Positions 13,764 through 46,728 of a DNA stretch of 64,000 nucleotides are shown here, piece by piece. The position numbers were made by a program, and so were the translations under genes. The stretch covers positions 1 through 64,000 of the forward strand of contig NZ_BMZG01000010.1 of NCBI RefSeq assembly GCF_014652675.1, in the 5' to 3' direction. The notes beneath the pieces are model-generated. The model was not told the origin of the DNA. It saw nothing but the letters and a program-made list of their open reading frames with translations, and did no database searches. Positions within the stretch are counted from its first letter, which is position 1; the number at the start of each line of letters is the position of its first letter. The DNA is from Formosimonas limnophila (GTDB lineage Bacteria > Pseudomonadota > Gammaproteobacteria > Burkholderiales > Burkholderiaceae).

Positions 13764-16094
13764 TTACGAACCGCAGGAAATACAGCCTTCTTCCATTGTG
13801 CACACCGCACCTTCGATGAGTTCCTCTTTTTTTTCCTCGGCTGCGACGGTGAATTGCACTGCTTGCGCGGCGGCTTTGGCTCGTAGGTAGTAAATGCCTG
13901 TTTTAAGCCCTTTTTGCCATGTGTAGAAATGCATGGAGGAGAGTTTGGCGATGGTGGGTTGCGCCATAAATAGGTTCATGGATTGGGATTGGCAGATGAA
14001 TGCACCACGGTCGGCGGCCATGTCGATGAGGGTTTTTTGTTTGATTTCCCAGACGGTTTTGTACAGGGCTTTAATCGGCTCGGGGATGCGCGGGATGTCT
14101 TGGACGGAGCCGTTGGCGCGGATGAGGTCGTTGCGCATTTTGTCGTCCCAGATGCCAAGGGCGTCGAGGTCACGCAAGAGGTGTTTGTTGACGACGATGA
14201 ATTCACCGCTGAGGACTCGACGTGTATAGATGTTGCTGGTGTAAGGCTCGAAGCACTCATTATTGCCCAATATTTGCGACGTCGAGGCGGTGGGCATGGG
14301 GGCGAGCAAGAGTGAGTTGCGCGCGCCGTGTTTGGCCAAATCTGTGCGCAGATCCTCCCAGTTCCAGTGAGGCGATGGGGTGATGTCCCATAAGTCGCAC
14401 TGGAGTTTTCCCTGCGAGAGTGGTGAGCCTTCGTAGGTTGGGTAAGTGCCTTGCTCAGCGGCAAGGTCTATCGAAGCGCGTAACGCGGCGTAGTAAATCG
14501 TCTCGAAAATTCGCTGGTTGAGTGTCTGAGCCATTTCAGAATCAAAGGGCATCCGTAGTAAAATGAATGCGTCAGCAAGCCCCTGTACGCCAATGCCGAT
14601 GGGGCGGTGGCGCATGTTTGAGTTGCGGGCTTCTTCAATTGGGTAGAGGTTTTTGTCGATGATTTTGTTGAGATTTTTGGTCGCGTGGTAGGTTACATCA
14701 AATAATTTTTGATGGTTGAATTGACTGCCCTCAACGAATTTCGGCAGCGCGATGGACGCGAGGTTGCATACTGCGACTTCATCGGGTGCTGTGTACTCGA
14801 TGACTTCGGTACACAGGTTGGAGGATTTGATTGTGCCCAAATGTTGTTGATTGCTTTTGCGATTCGCGGCGTCTTTGTACAGCAGATACGGCGTGCCTGT
14901 TTCGATTTGTGATTCGAGAATGGCGAACCAGAGTTCTTGGGCTTTGATGACGCGGCGCGCTTTGCCCTCTGATTCGTAGCGGGTGTAGAGTGTTTCAAAC
15001 GCCTCGCCCCAGCAGTCGTCTAAGCCTGGGCATTCGTGCGGGCAGAATAAACTCCATTCGCCATCAGCTTGTACACGCTGCATGAACAAATCATTCACCC
15101 ACAATGCATAAAACAAATCACGTGCACGCAATTCTTCCGCACCGTGGTTTTTTTTCAGTTGTAAAAAGTCGAACACATCCGCGTGCCATGGTTCAAGATA
15201 AATGGCAAATGCGCCTTTGCGTTTGCCGCCGCCTTGGTCAATGTAACGTGCGGTGTCGTTGAACACTTTGAGCATGGGCACGATGCCGTTGCTCGTGCCG
15301 TGCGTGCCCGCGATGGTGCTGCCTTTGGCACGGATTTTGTGGATAGACAGACCGATGCCGCCCGCGTTCTTAGAGATGAGTGCGGTTTGCTTGAGTGTGT
15401 TGTATATGCCTTCGACTGAGTCATCTTGGACGGTGAGTAAAAAGCATGAGCTCATTTGCGGGTGTGGCGTGCCAGAGTTAAACAAGGTTGGCGTGGCATG
15501 CGTGAACCAACCCTCGCTCATGAGGTTGTAAGTCTCGATGGCCGATGCAATGTCGTCGCCATGAATGCCGAGCGCGACCCGCATGTACATGTGTTGCGGA
15601 CGCTCGAGAATTTGACCATGCACACGTAGCAAATAGCTGTGCTCTAAGGTTTTGAATCCGAAGTAATCGAAATTAAAATCTCGGTCGTAAATCAGTGTCG
15701 AGTCGAGTAAATCGGCATTCGCTTTGACCGTGCCCAGCAATTCTTCGGTGATGATGGGTGAGTGTTTTTTTGTGTTGGCATCAACGTTATCAAACAGCTG
15801 CTGCATGGTTTGCGTGAATGATTTCGTCGTGTTTTTGTGCAGATTCGATACGGCGATGCGCGCGGCGAGTACGGCGTAATCGGGGTGGCTGGTTGCCATA
15901 CTCGCGGCGGTTTCGGCGGCGAGGTTGTCTAACTCTGTGGTGGTCACGCCGTCGTACAGACCCGCGATGACTTTTTTGGCGACATCAATCGGCTCGATGC
16001 GCGGGTGCAGGCTGTAAGACAGTTTTGCGATGCGGGCGATGATTTTATCGAATTGGACTGGCTCTTGTTTGCCGTTGCGTTTGATGACGAACAT
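13764..16094 (-). CDS. nrdA: Ribonucleoside-diphosphate reductase, alpha (large) subunit, eukaryotic-like type
   Basis: NrdA reduces ribonucleoside diphosphates with a thiyl radical generated by NrdB. The 776-residue chain has an N-terminal ATP-cone ([16 protein letters not shown] at residues 3-18, allosteric activity site), the first redox Cys in [11 protein letters not shown], the specificity loop, the [22 protein letters not shown] segment with the radical-site Cys, paired tyrosines for radical transfer and a C-terminal redox pair in GCISCGS. The [20 protein letters not shown] and [11 protein letters not shown] strings are those of eukaryotic R1 and of the bacterial subgroup closest to it, not of E. 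coli NrdA. It follows nrdB by 51 nt and lies behind a cobalamin riboswitch. Confidence 0.97.
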
Positions 16095-16145: not shown

Positions 16146-17165
16146 TTAAAAATCTTCTTCCAACGAAAACACCTGATCGCTTTTATTAGATAACACACCT
16201 GCTTTTTGATAATCGCCGACGCGTTTTTCAAAGAAATTCGTTTTACCCTCGAGCGAAATCATGTCCATGAAGTCGAATGGGTTTTTCGTGTGGTAGATTT
16301 TCGGGTAGTCGAGCGCGGCGAGCCAGTGGTCGGCGACGAATTCGATGTACTGAGCCATGAGTTCGGCATTCATGCCGATGAGGTTCACGGGCAGGGCTTC
16401 GCAGACGAAGTTTTTTTCAATCTCAACGGCGTCGCGGATGATGGCTTGCACAGCCTCGGTGGATAGGCGTTGGCGCAGCATGCGATAGAGTGTGCAGGCG
16501 AACTCACAGTGCAGTGCTTCGTCGCGGCTAATCAGCTCGTTAGAGAACGTCAGTCCAGGCATGAGGCCACGTTTTTTCAGCCAGTACAAAGCACAAAAAC
16601 TACCGCTGAAGAAAATTCCTTCAACGGCTGCGAAGGCGACCAGACGCTCGGCGAAGTTACCGTTGTCAATCCAGCGAAATGCCCAATTTGCTTTATTTTG
16701 GACGGCGGGGATGGTGTCGATGGCGTTGAATAGATGTGCTTTTTCGTCAGGATTTTGGATGTAGGTGTCAATCAGTAGTGCGTACGTTTCTGAGTGAATG
16801 TTTTCCACAGCGACTTGAAAGCCATAAAAACATCTCGCCTCTGGAATCTGCACTTCTTGCATGAAGTTCACAGCGAGGTTCTCATTCACGATGCCATCTG
16901 AGGCAGCAAAAAATGCGAGGACATGGCTGATGAAATGACGTTCATTGTTGGATAGCGCGCGCCAGTCGGTCAAATCACTTTCTAAGTCAATTTCCTGTGC
17001 GGTCCAAAAACTCGCTTTGTGGCGTTTGTATTGTTGCCATAAATTTGGGTGTTGAATAGGCAGCAACACAAAGCGATTGGGGTTGTGTGCGAGCATCGGC
17101 TCTAATGTGGGATCGAAGGTGTCAGAGAAAAACGAGGGTTGCTCTATGGGAAGTGCGGTGGACAT
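16146..17165 (-). CDS. nrdB: Ribonucleoside-diphosphate reductase, beta (small) subunit, eukaryotic-like type
   Basis: The 339-residue radical-generating subunit of class I ribonucleotide reductase. The [18 protein letters not shown] segment holds iron ligands and the radical tyrosine (Y128 by this numbering); a second ligand set lies in [13 protein letters not shown], and the C-terminal [21 protein letters not shown] and acidic FSLEEDF tail match eukaryotic R2. The tail docks on NrdA. The ATG at 17165 ([10 protein letters not shown]) was chosen; the frame stays open upstream but that part overlaps the riboswitch and resembles no protein. Transcription order is riboswitch-nrdB-nrdA. Confidence 0.96.
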
Positions 17166-17353
17166 GAGGCGTGCCTTTAAATGTTTGATCAACGGCAGGA
17201 CAAACCATCGCAAAAACAAGGCGGGGTGCAGCGGCGAGCCGCGCGAGGATGTCAAAGTCCATGGGCGCGTGCTGTGGGTGAGGTTTGAAAAAACATAAAC
17301 CACAAATTGATTGGCCGTGTGCACGCCTTTAATGCGAAGGTCGTGACACACTG

Positions 17354-17497
17354 ATTGTTTGAGCAGATATCCTGACTTGATGTTAAATTGACCCGTCTTC
17401 CCGCGAAGCTCGCAGTGACGCTGTGGGTCAGTAGTTACACATCTTACAGTTGCGCTACAGTCCATGATTCTCACATGGTTCCCTGAACTCAAACAAT
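17354..17497 (-). promoter_or_regulatory. Cobalamin (B12) riboswitch upstream of nrdBA
   Basis: Read on the minus strand the 144-nt element contains GGGAACC, then GTGAGAATC, GGACTGTAGCGCAACTGTAAG, CACTG, GCGGGAAGACGGG and finally the B12 box AAGTCAGGATATCTGC (consensus rAGYCMGGAgaCCkGC). The ends pair perfectly: ATTGTTTGAG at 17497-17488 with CTCAAACAAT at 17363-17354, forming helix P1. These are the ordered landmarks of the cobalamin aptamer. It lies about 190 nt before the nrdB start, so control could be by a downstream terminator or by hiding the ribosome site. Binding of adenosylcobalamin would be expected to lower expression of the B12-independent reductase. Confidence 0.88.
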
Positions 17498-17638
17498 GAG
17501 TGATGAGGTGAATCATAACAGAGAATTTTTCATCAGGCTGGCATAATCAGGTCAAAATTTGCTATCGAAGTGCAATCTTGATATAAAACAAAATGTTACC
17601 CAACATACATTAAAGATCGGATGAAAGAGGAGTTCTAA

Positions 17639-18667
17639 ATGAAAGAGTTTGATACGCCATCGACCATGAAGGCAGTTATCTGTGAGGGTACAGGAGATGC
17701 TTCGGTGTTGCGCATAGCAGAATTGCCTACGCCAAATTTGCCAGCCGATAGCTCAGGATTGGTTGTGATTCGGGTTCATGCAGCGGGCGTTAATCGGCCA
17801 GACATATTGCAGCGGCAAGGGTTATACCAGCCACCGCCAGATGCATCGCCGATTTTAGGTTTGGAAGTCGCTGGTGAAATCGTCGGCGGTGATTTGGTGG
17901 GGACAAATTGGCGAGTCGGCGACGCTGTTTGTGCGCTCACGCACGGCGGGGGTTATGCGCAGTATGTGGTTGTGGATGCACGGCATTGCTTGCCTGTGCC
18001 GACGGGGTGGTCAATGGTGCAGGCGGCGAGTTTGCCTGAGACTTATTTCACGGTGTGGTTTAATCTGTTTCAAAAGGCGCGCTTGTGCGCCGGCGAGACT
18101 TTGCTTGTTCATGCGGGTGCGAGTGGTATTGGGGTGGCGGCGATTTCGCTGGCCTCTGCCTTGGGCGTTAGGGTTGTTGCCACTTTAGGTGAATCTATGG
18201 AGACGAAGGCGAATGCCTGTCAATCACTGGGTGCTGCTTTGGTCGTGGATGTGCGAGAGGTCGATTGGTGGCGAAATGTCTTGAGCTTTACGGGTGGCCA
18301 TGGCGTCAATGCGGTGCTTGATGTGCGCGGTGGCGATACGCTGGATGCCAATATTCAGGTTATGGCGCACGGTGGGCGGTTGGTGTGGTTGGCGTTTTTG
18401 GCAGGCAATCGCACTGCACTGAAAATCAGTGAGGTGATGGCGAAAGAGTTGGTGCTCACTGGCTCGTTTTTACGAAGACAGTCGTCAATGATGAAAGCCG
18501 AAATAGCAGCCGATTTAAATGCCAAGGTCTGGCCGCTCATGCAGACTGGTGCAATCACACCCGTGCTCGATAGTGTATTTGATATGGTTGATGTCCAAGA
18601 CGCACACCGACACATGGAGCGCAATGCTCATACGGGCAAAATTGTTCTTAAAATACACGACCATTGA
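17639..18667 (+). CDS. NAD(P)H:quinone oxidoreductase, zinc-free MDR family
   Basis: A 342-residue medium-chain reductase of the QOR/PIG3 group, which reduces quinones or enones with NADPH. Seen: the N-terminal catalytic domain with HAAGVNRPDILQRQGLYQPPP, the GLEVAGEI segment, the nucleotide-binding motif VHAGASGIGVAAISLA near residues 158-173, and the C-terminal helix with HTGKIVLKI. No structural-zinc Cys cluster is present, as expected for quinone reductases. The start is preceded by AAAGAGGAG. In related Burkholderiales tpiA lies between this gene and secG; here it does not. Confidence 0.9.
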   Translation: MKEFDTPSTMKAVICEGTGDASVLRIAELPTPNLPADSSGLVVIRVHAAGVNRPDILQRQGLYQPPPDASPILGLEVAGEIVGGDLVGTNWRVGDAVCALTHGGGYAQYVVVDARHCLPVPTGWSMVQAASLPETYFTVWFNLFQKARLCAGETLLVHAGASGIGVAAISLASALGVRVVATLGESMETKANACQSLGAALVVDVREVDWWRNVLSFTGGHGVNAVLDVRGGDTLDANIQVMAHGGRLVWLAFLAGNRTALKISEVMAKELVLTGSFLRRQSSMMKAEIAADLNAKVWPLMQTGAITPVLDSVFDMVDVQDAHRHMERNAHTGKIVLKIHDH

Positions 18668-46307: not shown

Positions 46308-46383
46308 GGGTGTTTAGCTCAGTTGGTAGAGCGGCGCCCTTACAAGGCGTAGGTCGGGAGTTCGAGCCTCTCAACACCCACCA
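46308..46383 (+). tRNA. tRNA-Val, anticodon UAC (copy 1)
   Basis: GGGTGTT / AACACCC acceptor, D arm GCTCAGTTGGTAGAGC, anticodon TAC within CTTACAA, T arm CGGGAGTTCGAGCCTCTC and encoded CCA. 76 nt, identical to copy 2. Confidence 0.96.
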
Positions 46384-46402
46384 GTCTTAAAATAGTAGTT
46401 TT

Positions 46403-46479
46403 GGAGCGGTAGTTCAGTTGGTTAGAATACCGGCCTGTCACGCCGGGGGTCGCGGGTTCGAGCCCCGTCCGCTCCGCCA
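46403..46479 (+). tRNA. tRNA-Asp, anticodon GUC (copy 1)
   Basis: GGAGCGG / CCGCTCC acceptor, anticodon GTC within CTGTCAC, stem CCGGC/GCCGG, T arm CGGGTTCGAGCCCCG and encoded CCA. 77 nt, identical to copy 2. Confidence 0.96.
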
Positions 46480-46483
46480 AAAC

Positions 46484-46512
46484 AAAAATGCGAACTCAGG
46501 TTCGCGTTTTTA
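46484..46512 (+). terminator. Hairpin between the two tRNA pairs
   Basis: AAAAATGCGAA / TTCGCGTTTTT with loop CTCAGG. It could end transcription after the first pair, so the second pair may have its own start. Confidence 0.6.
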
Positions 46513-46555
46513 TTCTGAGTATTTTTTGCTTAGAATGCAGTGACAAAATGGATGC

Positions 46556-46631
46556 GGGTGTTTAGCTCAGTTGGTAGAGCGGCGCCCTTACAAGGCGTAG
46601 GTCGGGAGTTCGAGCCTCTCAACACCCACCA
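46556..46631 (+). tRNA. tRNA-Val, anticodon UAC (copy 2)
   Basis: Same 76-nt gene as the copy at 46308, base for base. Confidence 0.96.
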
Positions 46632-46651
46632 CGTATCCGATGCAGTAAACT

Positions 46652-46728
46652 GGAGCGGTAGTTCAGTTGGTTAGAATACCGGCCTGTCACGCCGGGGGTC
46701 GCGGGTTCGAGCCCCGTCCGCTCCGCCA
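46652..46728 (+). tRNA. tRNA-Asp, anticodon GUC (copy 2)
   Basis: Same 77-nt gene as the copy at 46403, base for base. Confidence 0.96.

Follow-up and report, generated by a model that had tools for sequence, protein, structure and literature searches.

A cobalamin riboswitch leader shared by two sister genera ahead of unrelated class I ribonucleotide reductases

Why should a cobalamin riboswitch stand in front of genes for a ribonucleotide reductase that does not need B12? One locus raises this question in the window, that is, the whole stretch of 64,000 nucleotides analyzed here. A preliminary description had placed a cobalamin aptamer on its minus strand, from 17354 to 17497 and about 190 nt ahead of nrdB, and had predicted an nrdJ gene as well as B12 uptake or synthesis elsewhere in the genome. 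Our reading, to which we give a probability of about 80%, is that the leader lowers nrdBA expression when B12 is present, since the B12-dependent reductase NrdJ then supplies deoxynucleotides. The features of the locus, all on the minus strand, are as follows.

17345-17507, minus strand: cobalamin riboswitch aptamer, full-length RF00174 match with a P8-P11-like arm (77.1 bits, E 3e-17)
17488-17497, minus strand: P1, 5' strand ATTGTTTGAG, perfect complement of 17363-17354
17462-17478, minus strand: P5 hairpin with loop L5 (TGAGAAT, 17473-17467), CCATG/CATGG pairs
17363-17378, minus strand: B12 box (J6/3) AAGTCAGGATATCTGC, read from the sequence and aligned to the RF00174 consensus
17354-17363, minus strand: P1, 3' strand CTCAAACAAT, pairing with 17497-17488
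17317-17351, minus strand: P13 hairpin with loop L13 (CGCATTA), expression-platform stem of 13 pairs, isolated fold -15.2 kcal/mol
17174-17178, minus strand: Shine-Dalgarno sequence AAAGG of nrdB, read from the sequence, 8 nt before the ATG
16146-17165, minus strand: nrdB, class Ia radical subunit of 339 aa, eukaryote-like/Bacteroidota type (PF00268, 372 bits)
13764-16094, minus strand: nrdA, class Ia catalytic subunit of 776 aa with one ATP cone (TIGR02506, 717.5 bits; PF03477, 58 bits)

By its match in an Rfam covariance search, the leader is confirmed as a cobalamin riboswitch: RF00174 aligns with 17345-17507 (minus strand) over model positions 1-189, at a score that exceeds the gathering score of 31.5 bits, and the B12 box and the P1 and P5 helices are in place. 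The box and the perfect 10-bp P1 lie where the preliminary description had seen them (17378-17363, and 17497-17488 with 17363-17354), and the distance from the aptamer 3' end to the nrdB start codon (ATG, 17165-17163, minus strand) is 179 nt. The extent first given was right as to the site and too short as to the feature, which continues with the P13 hairpin from 17351 to 17317. The names P1, P5, P13, L5 and J6/3 are those that we take to apply to these helices and loops. The class I reductase claimed behind the riboswitch is indeed there, nrdB and then nrdA following directly on the same strand, and a gene of the zinc-binding dehydrogenase family on the other strand reads away from the locus. 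Upstream of its start codon, the nrdB frame runs on without a stop codon across P13 and the aptamer (16146-17516, 456 codons in total). Elsewhere in the window, at 46308-46728, a tRNA-Val(tac)-tRNA-Asp(gtc) pair occurs twice in tandem, about 248 bases apart.

A B12-dependent substitute for this enzyme is encoded in the same genome, as had been predicted. Two large reductase subunits were found with PF02867, the NrdA of the window and a 1044-aa frame on another contig (C6), which is NrdJ: it scores 604.7 bits against TIGR02504 in the genome search and 603.5 bits as a protein, for a cut-off of 399.95 bits. All six genomes of the window's genus, here called Hydromonas, carry NrdJ, each at more than 600 bits. 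About 3 kb upstream of nrdJ lies a gene with a reverse transcriptase domain (PF00078, 55 bits; L005, 4876-6399). The prediction of B12 uptake or synthesis was borne out on the side of uptake. The genome has two cobalamin riboswitches, the second of which precedes genes for a BtuB-like receptor and BtuC- and BtuD-like proteins (labels given by best NCBIfam matches, below the curated cut-offs), and a PduO-type adenosyltransferase is present in seven of the eight genomes of Hydromonas and its sister genus, one of the seven being that of the window. None of these eight genomes yielded the corrin-ring marker CbiC, which was present in two of four other Burkholderiaceae; since it was not found, the organism looks like a cobalamin importer, as judged by this one marker gene. 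The idea that the nrd switch is a copy of the btu riboswitch of its own genome was rejected, as the two share 17 of 42 core positions in a local alignment, compared to 36 to 40 shared with six other nrd leaders.

The leader is found throughout the genus and, with other genes behind it, in the sister genus. RF00174 lies directly before nrdB in all five Hydromonas genomes with an nrdB match (that of the window, G314, G333, G347 and G357), where the exact core motif agrees; the scores are 77.1, 40.7, 31.7, 31.0 and 27.3 bits, the last two being below the gathering score, and the sixth genome (G367, 85% complete) gave no nrdB match. The sister genus (g150) is represented by G315 and G334, and NrdJ was found in G315, the one genome tested (609.5 bits). 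Its class I genes are E. coli-type nrdAB (in G315, PRK09103 at 1480 bits and PRK09101 at 725 bits), preceded by a cobalamin leader that RF01482 matches at 43.7 and 45.8 bits, both short of the 50 bits set as its gathering score. When the seven nrd leaders of both genera were aligned, 66 of 193 columns were invariant, concentrated in the core, the B12 box and P13; arms and linkers are variable. All seven keep the five pairs of P5 and the four inner pairs of P13 unchanged, the outer P13 pairs having 0 to 2 breaks. P13 corresponds to a hairpin of RF01482, a family that matches three kindred leaders at 34.7-45.8 bits, again below its gathering score. Within a single genus, the arm that joins core and B12 box in the aptamer varies strongly, being class-I-like in the window and a short hairpin in G314; the core and P13 stay constant beside it (alignment A3, columns 55-120, nrd leaders).

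In Hydromonas, the operon behind the leader is, on the similarities that follow, a eukaryote-like one acquired from Bacteroidota. PF00268 scores NrdB at 368-380 bits in Hydromonas, 160 bits in the sister genus, and 288-314 bits in those remaining matches of the family sample that are complete. The NrdB of the window is 86-88% identical to those of Hydromonas duriensis, another Hydromonas and an uncultured Burkholderiaceae; Hydromonas NrdB shares 26-28% identity with 19 further NrdB proteins of Burkholderiaceae, and 75% with that of a member of the Chitinophagales. In a tree of 50 of the 103 extracted NrdB rows (L022-L060 of L022-L098 and six of the 19 Burkholderiaceae, leaving aside sister-genus rows and eukaryotes), the five Hydromonas proteins are nested among 28 Bacteroidota rows (SH-aLRT 99), two of which adjoin them (SH-aLRT 97). 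They thus group with Bacteroidota and not with Burkholderiaceae, as expected of the Bacteroidota clade of Lundin 2010. An NrdA homologue accompanies 75 of 77 NrdB loci outside the genus; in the 25 loci inspected, its gene follows nrdB on the same strand. Among solved structures, NrdB best matches 1h0n (475.7 bits, eukaryotic R2 chains), compared to 57 bits for E. coli R2, and NrdA best matches 3hnc (1160 bits, human-type), compared to about 249 bits for E. coli R1; the two structures are of mammalian and human type. For the class I reductase of Bacteroidetes, a eukaryotic source has been argued in the excerpted text of PMC3019208.

The switch did not, however, seem to travel with the operon. 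Arrival of the leader together with the Bacteroidota genes was rejected: our leader model R1, built from the seven nrd leaders (five of Hydromonas, two of the sister genus), matched none of the 77 non-Hydromonas NrdB loci at E 1, 73 of which hold at least 400 nt upstream (L027, L049, L070 and L071 hold less). None of the 13 such loci checked against Rfam, L027 among them, had a match at the gathering score.

How, then, did similar leaders come to precede such different operons? The simplest account is that the switch was present in a common ancestor and that the enzyme genes were exchanged behind it. The ancestor common to Hydromonas and its sister genus probably already had the switch; other enzyme genes would later have taken the place of the original ones behind it, the Bacteroidota operon in the case of Hydromonas. 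We consider it reasonably probable that a B12-riboswitch leader has in this way outlived its enzyme, in two sister genera with two unrelated class I reductases, one of them eukaryote-derived via Bacteroidota. Alternatively, no leader was retained, and the two genera recruited their riboswitches independently from a common source, a history that would be just as compatible with repression by B12. Such recruitment would fit the unrelatedness of the controlled operons (NrdB 23% identical between the genera), the differing gene neighborhoods that we read, and the existence of similar nrd riboswitches in Gammaproteobacteria. We nevertheless find it rather unlikely, given that the two genera form a 100/100 clade in a NuoD tree (28 rows, computed without G304 and G322, the latter having no match), that their nrd leaders have 36-41 of 42 core positions in common, where comparison with three gammaproteobacterial nrd leaders gives 29-33 and with two btu switches 10-25, and that both possess a like P13 with a similar loop. 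If the leader did outlive its enzyme, then the regulatory RNA, and not the enzyme, would be the inherited unit, and would have persisted owing to the presence of NrdJ in a cell that relies on B12 import. This is an apparent case of a regulatory RNA being kept while protein genes were exchanged across phyla, and would show a riboswitch capturing foreign genes.

Cobalamin riboswitches of any kind are widespread in the order, with 258 of 300 genomes positive for RF00174 in a search used for this count alone. R1, run with stricter filters on 399 genomes of the order, a sample with apparently no other genome of Hydromonas or the sister genus, matched only the window and one site away from nrd genes (G036, L100). 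It also weakly matched one cobalamin site not associated with nrd genes (L016, 25.2 bits). The doubt first expressed that such wiring is standard in Burkholderiales was justified within the Burkholderiaceae, as none of 19 other nrdAB loci of this family carries a switch by Rfam at gathering score or by R1. Nine of these loci come from NrdJ-bearing genomes. The sequence ahead of the nrdA frame measures 1.6 kb or more in 17 of them, all those measured; in L115 and L119, another frame is the longest. In the sampled Burkholderiales, Hydromonas and the sister genus alone provided nrd cases, and no report of riboswitch-nrd wiring in this order was found in the literature searched. We take the codes of the sampled order, family and class to be Burkholderiales, Burkholderiaceae and Gammaproteobacteria.

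How might the leader act? Cobalamin, most likely adenosylcobalamin, would bind the aptamer; L5 would dock on L13 and stabilize P13, and nrdB translation would be lost. With B12 available, NrdJ would supply deoxynucleotides and the class Ia enzyme could be lowered. The parts of this proposal that were observed are the full aptamer, the conserved P13/L13 hairpin, the class I genes downstream, NrdJ and the B12-uptake-like genes; between L5 and L13, two to three possible pairs only could be seen by eye. Neither an intrinsic terminator nor a sigma-70-type promoter was found in 17050-17750 (shuffles expect 0.6 and 1.1), and the lack of a terminator-like site in the leader favors translational or Rho-dependent control in the window. 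In the sister genus, this last step can be followed in the sequence. In both of its leaders, the element CACGCCTTT can pair either with the Shine-Dalgarno region ATAAAGG or with the P13 3' arm AAAGGCGTG, its perfect complement; because arm and Shine-Dalgarno sequence compete for CACGCCTTT, formation of P13 would close the ribosome-binding site. Indeed, the predicted probability that the Shine-Dalgarno sequence is unpaired is 0.00 in both leaders when P13 is formed, and 0.62 and 0.69 when it is blocked (p 0.005, the least value possible with 200 shuffled linkers), and the exposure change over -18 to +3 is 0.35 and 0.36 (p 0.010 and 0.005). Translational repression is thus well supported by folding in the sister genus, and only there.

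The Hydromonas leaders behave differently, and some of their folding results point away from repression. Shine-Dalgarno exposure does not differ significantly between P13 formed and P13 blocked in any of the five (-0.06 to 0.09). Their start codons tend to be more exposed with P13 formed. Tested against shuffles, pairing of the P13 3' arm to the linker gave p 0.014 and 0.025 in the sister-genus leaders, 0.05 in the window and 0.17-0.38 in the four other Hydromonas leaders (p 0.014 combined over five leaders). A single translational switch common to all seven leaders was rejected, as the partners of the arm sit at different places. In the window, the stretch AGGCGTGC of the arm is fully complementary to its best partner GCACGCCT, directly before the start codon (duplex -16.4 kcal/mol), and the best partner of the arm in G314 has the same position (p 0.38); such pairing alone would point to activation. 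Under that reading, the arm would pair at the nrdB start without B12, and a B12-stabilized P13 would free it. Activating corrinoid riboswitches have a precedent before cobT of Alkalihalobacillus halodurans, as described in the part of PMC10653944 consulted. The fold of the window with P13 blocked, in which arm and loop pair with GCCT and the ATG of the nrdB start, would agree with it, and so would the start codons of G333 and G347, two leaders that are near copies of each other, with exposures of 0.84 and 0.85 when P13 is formed and 0.00 in both when it is blocked (p 0.050 and 0.095). In the window, however, start-codon exposure of 0.66 versus 0.44 (difference -0.22, p 0.66) is no more than shuffles give, G314 is near equal (0.35 versus 0.33), G357 is opposite (0.71 versus 0.88), and in the fold of the window computed without constraint, the arm is paired to GCACCCCGCCTT and not to the start-codon spacer. 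Moreover, for B12 to raise a B12-independent enzyme in a cell with NrdJ would hardly be sensible physiologically, and the leaders of the sister genus speak for repression. We therefore judge activation improbable, and it is from physiology and the sister-genus leaders that repression is the sign proposed for the window. It is more improbable still that the Hydromonas switch is a decaying relic that has lost its response to B12: decay would fit the two scores below the gathering score within the genus (31.0 and 27.3 bits) and an arm between core and B12 box that is different in nearly all genomes, but the invariant columns of the seven leaders are concentrated in the core, the B12 box and P13, and the copy of the window is the strongest of the genus, with an end-to-end model match.

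Repression beside NrdJ leads to a wider expectation, namely that B12 governs class I reductase genes where B12-dependent NrdJ can substitute, which we offer as a testable rule. Judged by model matches, riboswitch-nrdA wiring recurs in Gammaproteobacteria. Of 369 genomes of this class, 19 gave an R1 match, one of them being the genome of the window. Outside the window, there were 19 matches in 18 genomes, of which 15 (14 genomes) precede nrdA of the Pseudomonas/Burkholderia type, and all 15 reach an Rfam gathering score (one nrdA, on contig C1 of G709, is incomplete). The other four are not at nrdA but at a metE-like gene (G533), a TonB-receptor-like gene (G577) and other genes (G537 and G759; that of G759, L179, had no Rfam match at gathering score). 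NrdJ is present in 12 of the 14 R1-positive nrdA genomes versus 6 of 29 R1-negative genomes with an nrdA-type match (Fisher p 1.3e-4), the latter drawn from 50 in numerical order after exclusion of G510 and G513 (62 and 75% complete). NrdA and NrdJ were told apart by score and extent, NrdA reaching up to 409 bits and NrdJ starting from 432 bits or occurring as split pieces; in G540 it consists of two fragments only, each below the cut-off, and in the riboswitch-bearing G820 and G709 it was not detected. Among the R1-negatives, an Rfam riboswitch precedes nrdA in three of the six NrdJ-bearing genomes, one of which (G526) offers only about 340 nt upstream, and in none of 14 checked among the 23 without NrdJ. 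Combined, NrdJ occurs in 15 of 17 nrdA genomes with a riboswitch versus 3 of 17 checked without (Fisher p 9e-5); since the groups were not drawn at random, both p-values are guides.

Several of these gammaproteobacterial loci have features of their own. At L153, L155, L156 and L158, the riboswitch-nrdA unit adjoins a LysR-type gene and a metE-like gene, so that two B12-independent isozymes are neighbors; by motif and position, we take these genes to be MetR and MetE. G709 (L170, L172) has two nrdA-like genes, the incomplete one included, each with its own cobalamin riboswitch. At L175 (3000-3521), two divergent cobalamin riboswitches stand back to back, one of them before a metE-like gene.

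Compared with known systems, the locus is closest in logic to nrdABS of Streptomyces coelicolor, where, according to the excerpted text of PMC4991794, a B12 riboswitch precedes a class Ia reductase and NrdJ is also present; this is the precedent for the Streptomyces logic given in the preliminary description, that B12 represses class I where NrdJ substitutes. The window shares the riboswitch, the class Ia genes and NrdJ in the genome; unlike Streptomyces, it belongs to another phylum and has eukaryote-like nrdBA, and the Streptomyces operon also carries the regulator nrdS. In Desulfovibrio vulgaris and Desulfuromonas, B12 elements precede nrdDG, with B12 repression predicted and NrdJ present, as far as the part of PMC545781 consulted describes them; a B12-independent reductase beside NrdJ, and predicted repression, are common to these and the window, but the deltaproteobacterial enzyme is NrdDG and not class Ia. 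The metE riboswitch of Priestia megaterium, again for a B12-independent isozyme, exchanges the P13 3' arm between P13 and a downstream element, forming a transcription terminator (PMC10653944, in the part consulted); the arm exchange of the sister genus mirrors it, with a stem sequestering the Shine-Dalgarno sequence instead of a terminator. The gammaproteobacterial leaders (L165-L174, L176-L178, L180, L181, L182, L185 and L187) also place a riboswitch before class Ia genes, but their nrdA are of the Pseudomonas/Burkholderia type and not of the Bacteroidota type. B12 control of a B12-independent reductase is thus known; what is unusual here is that a seemingly inherited switch precedes an operon that is foreign and eukaryote-like.
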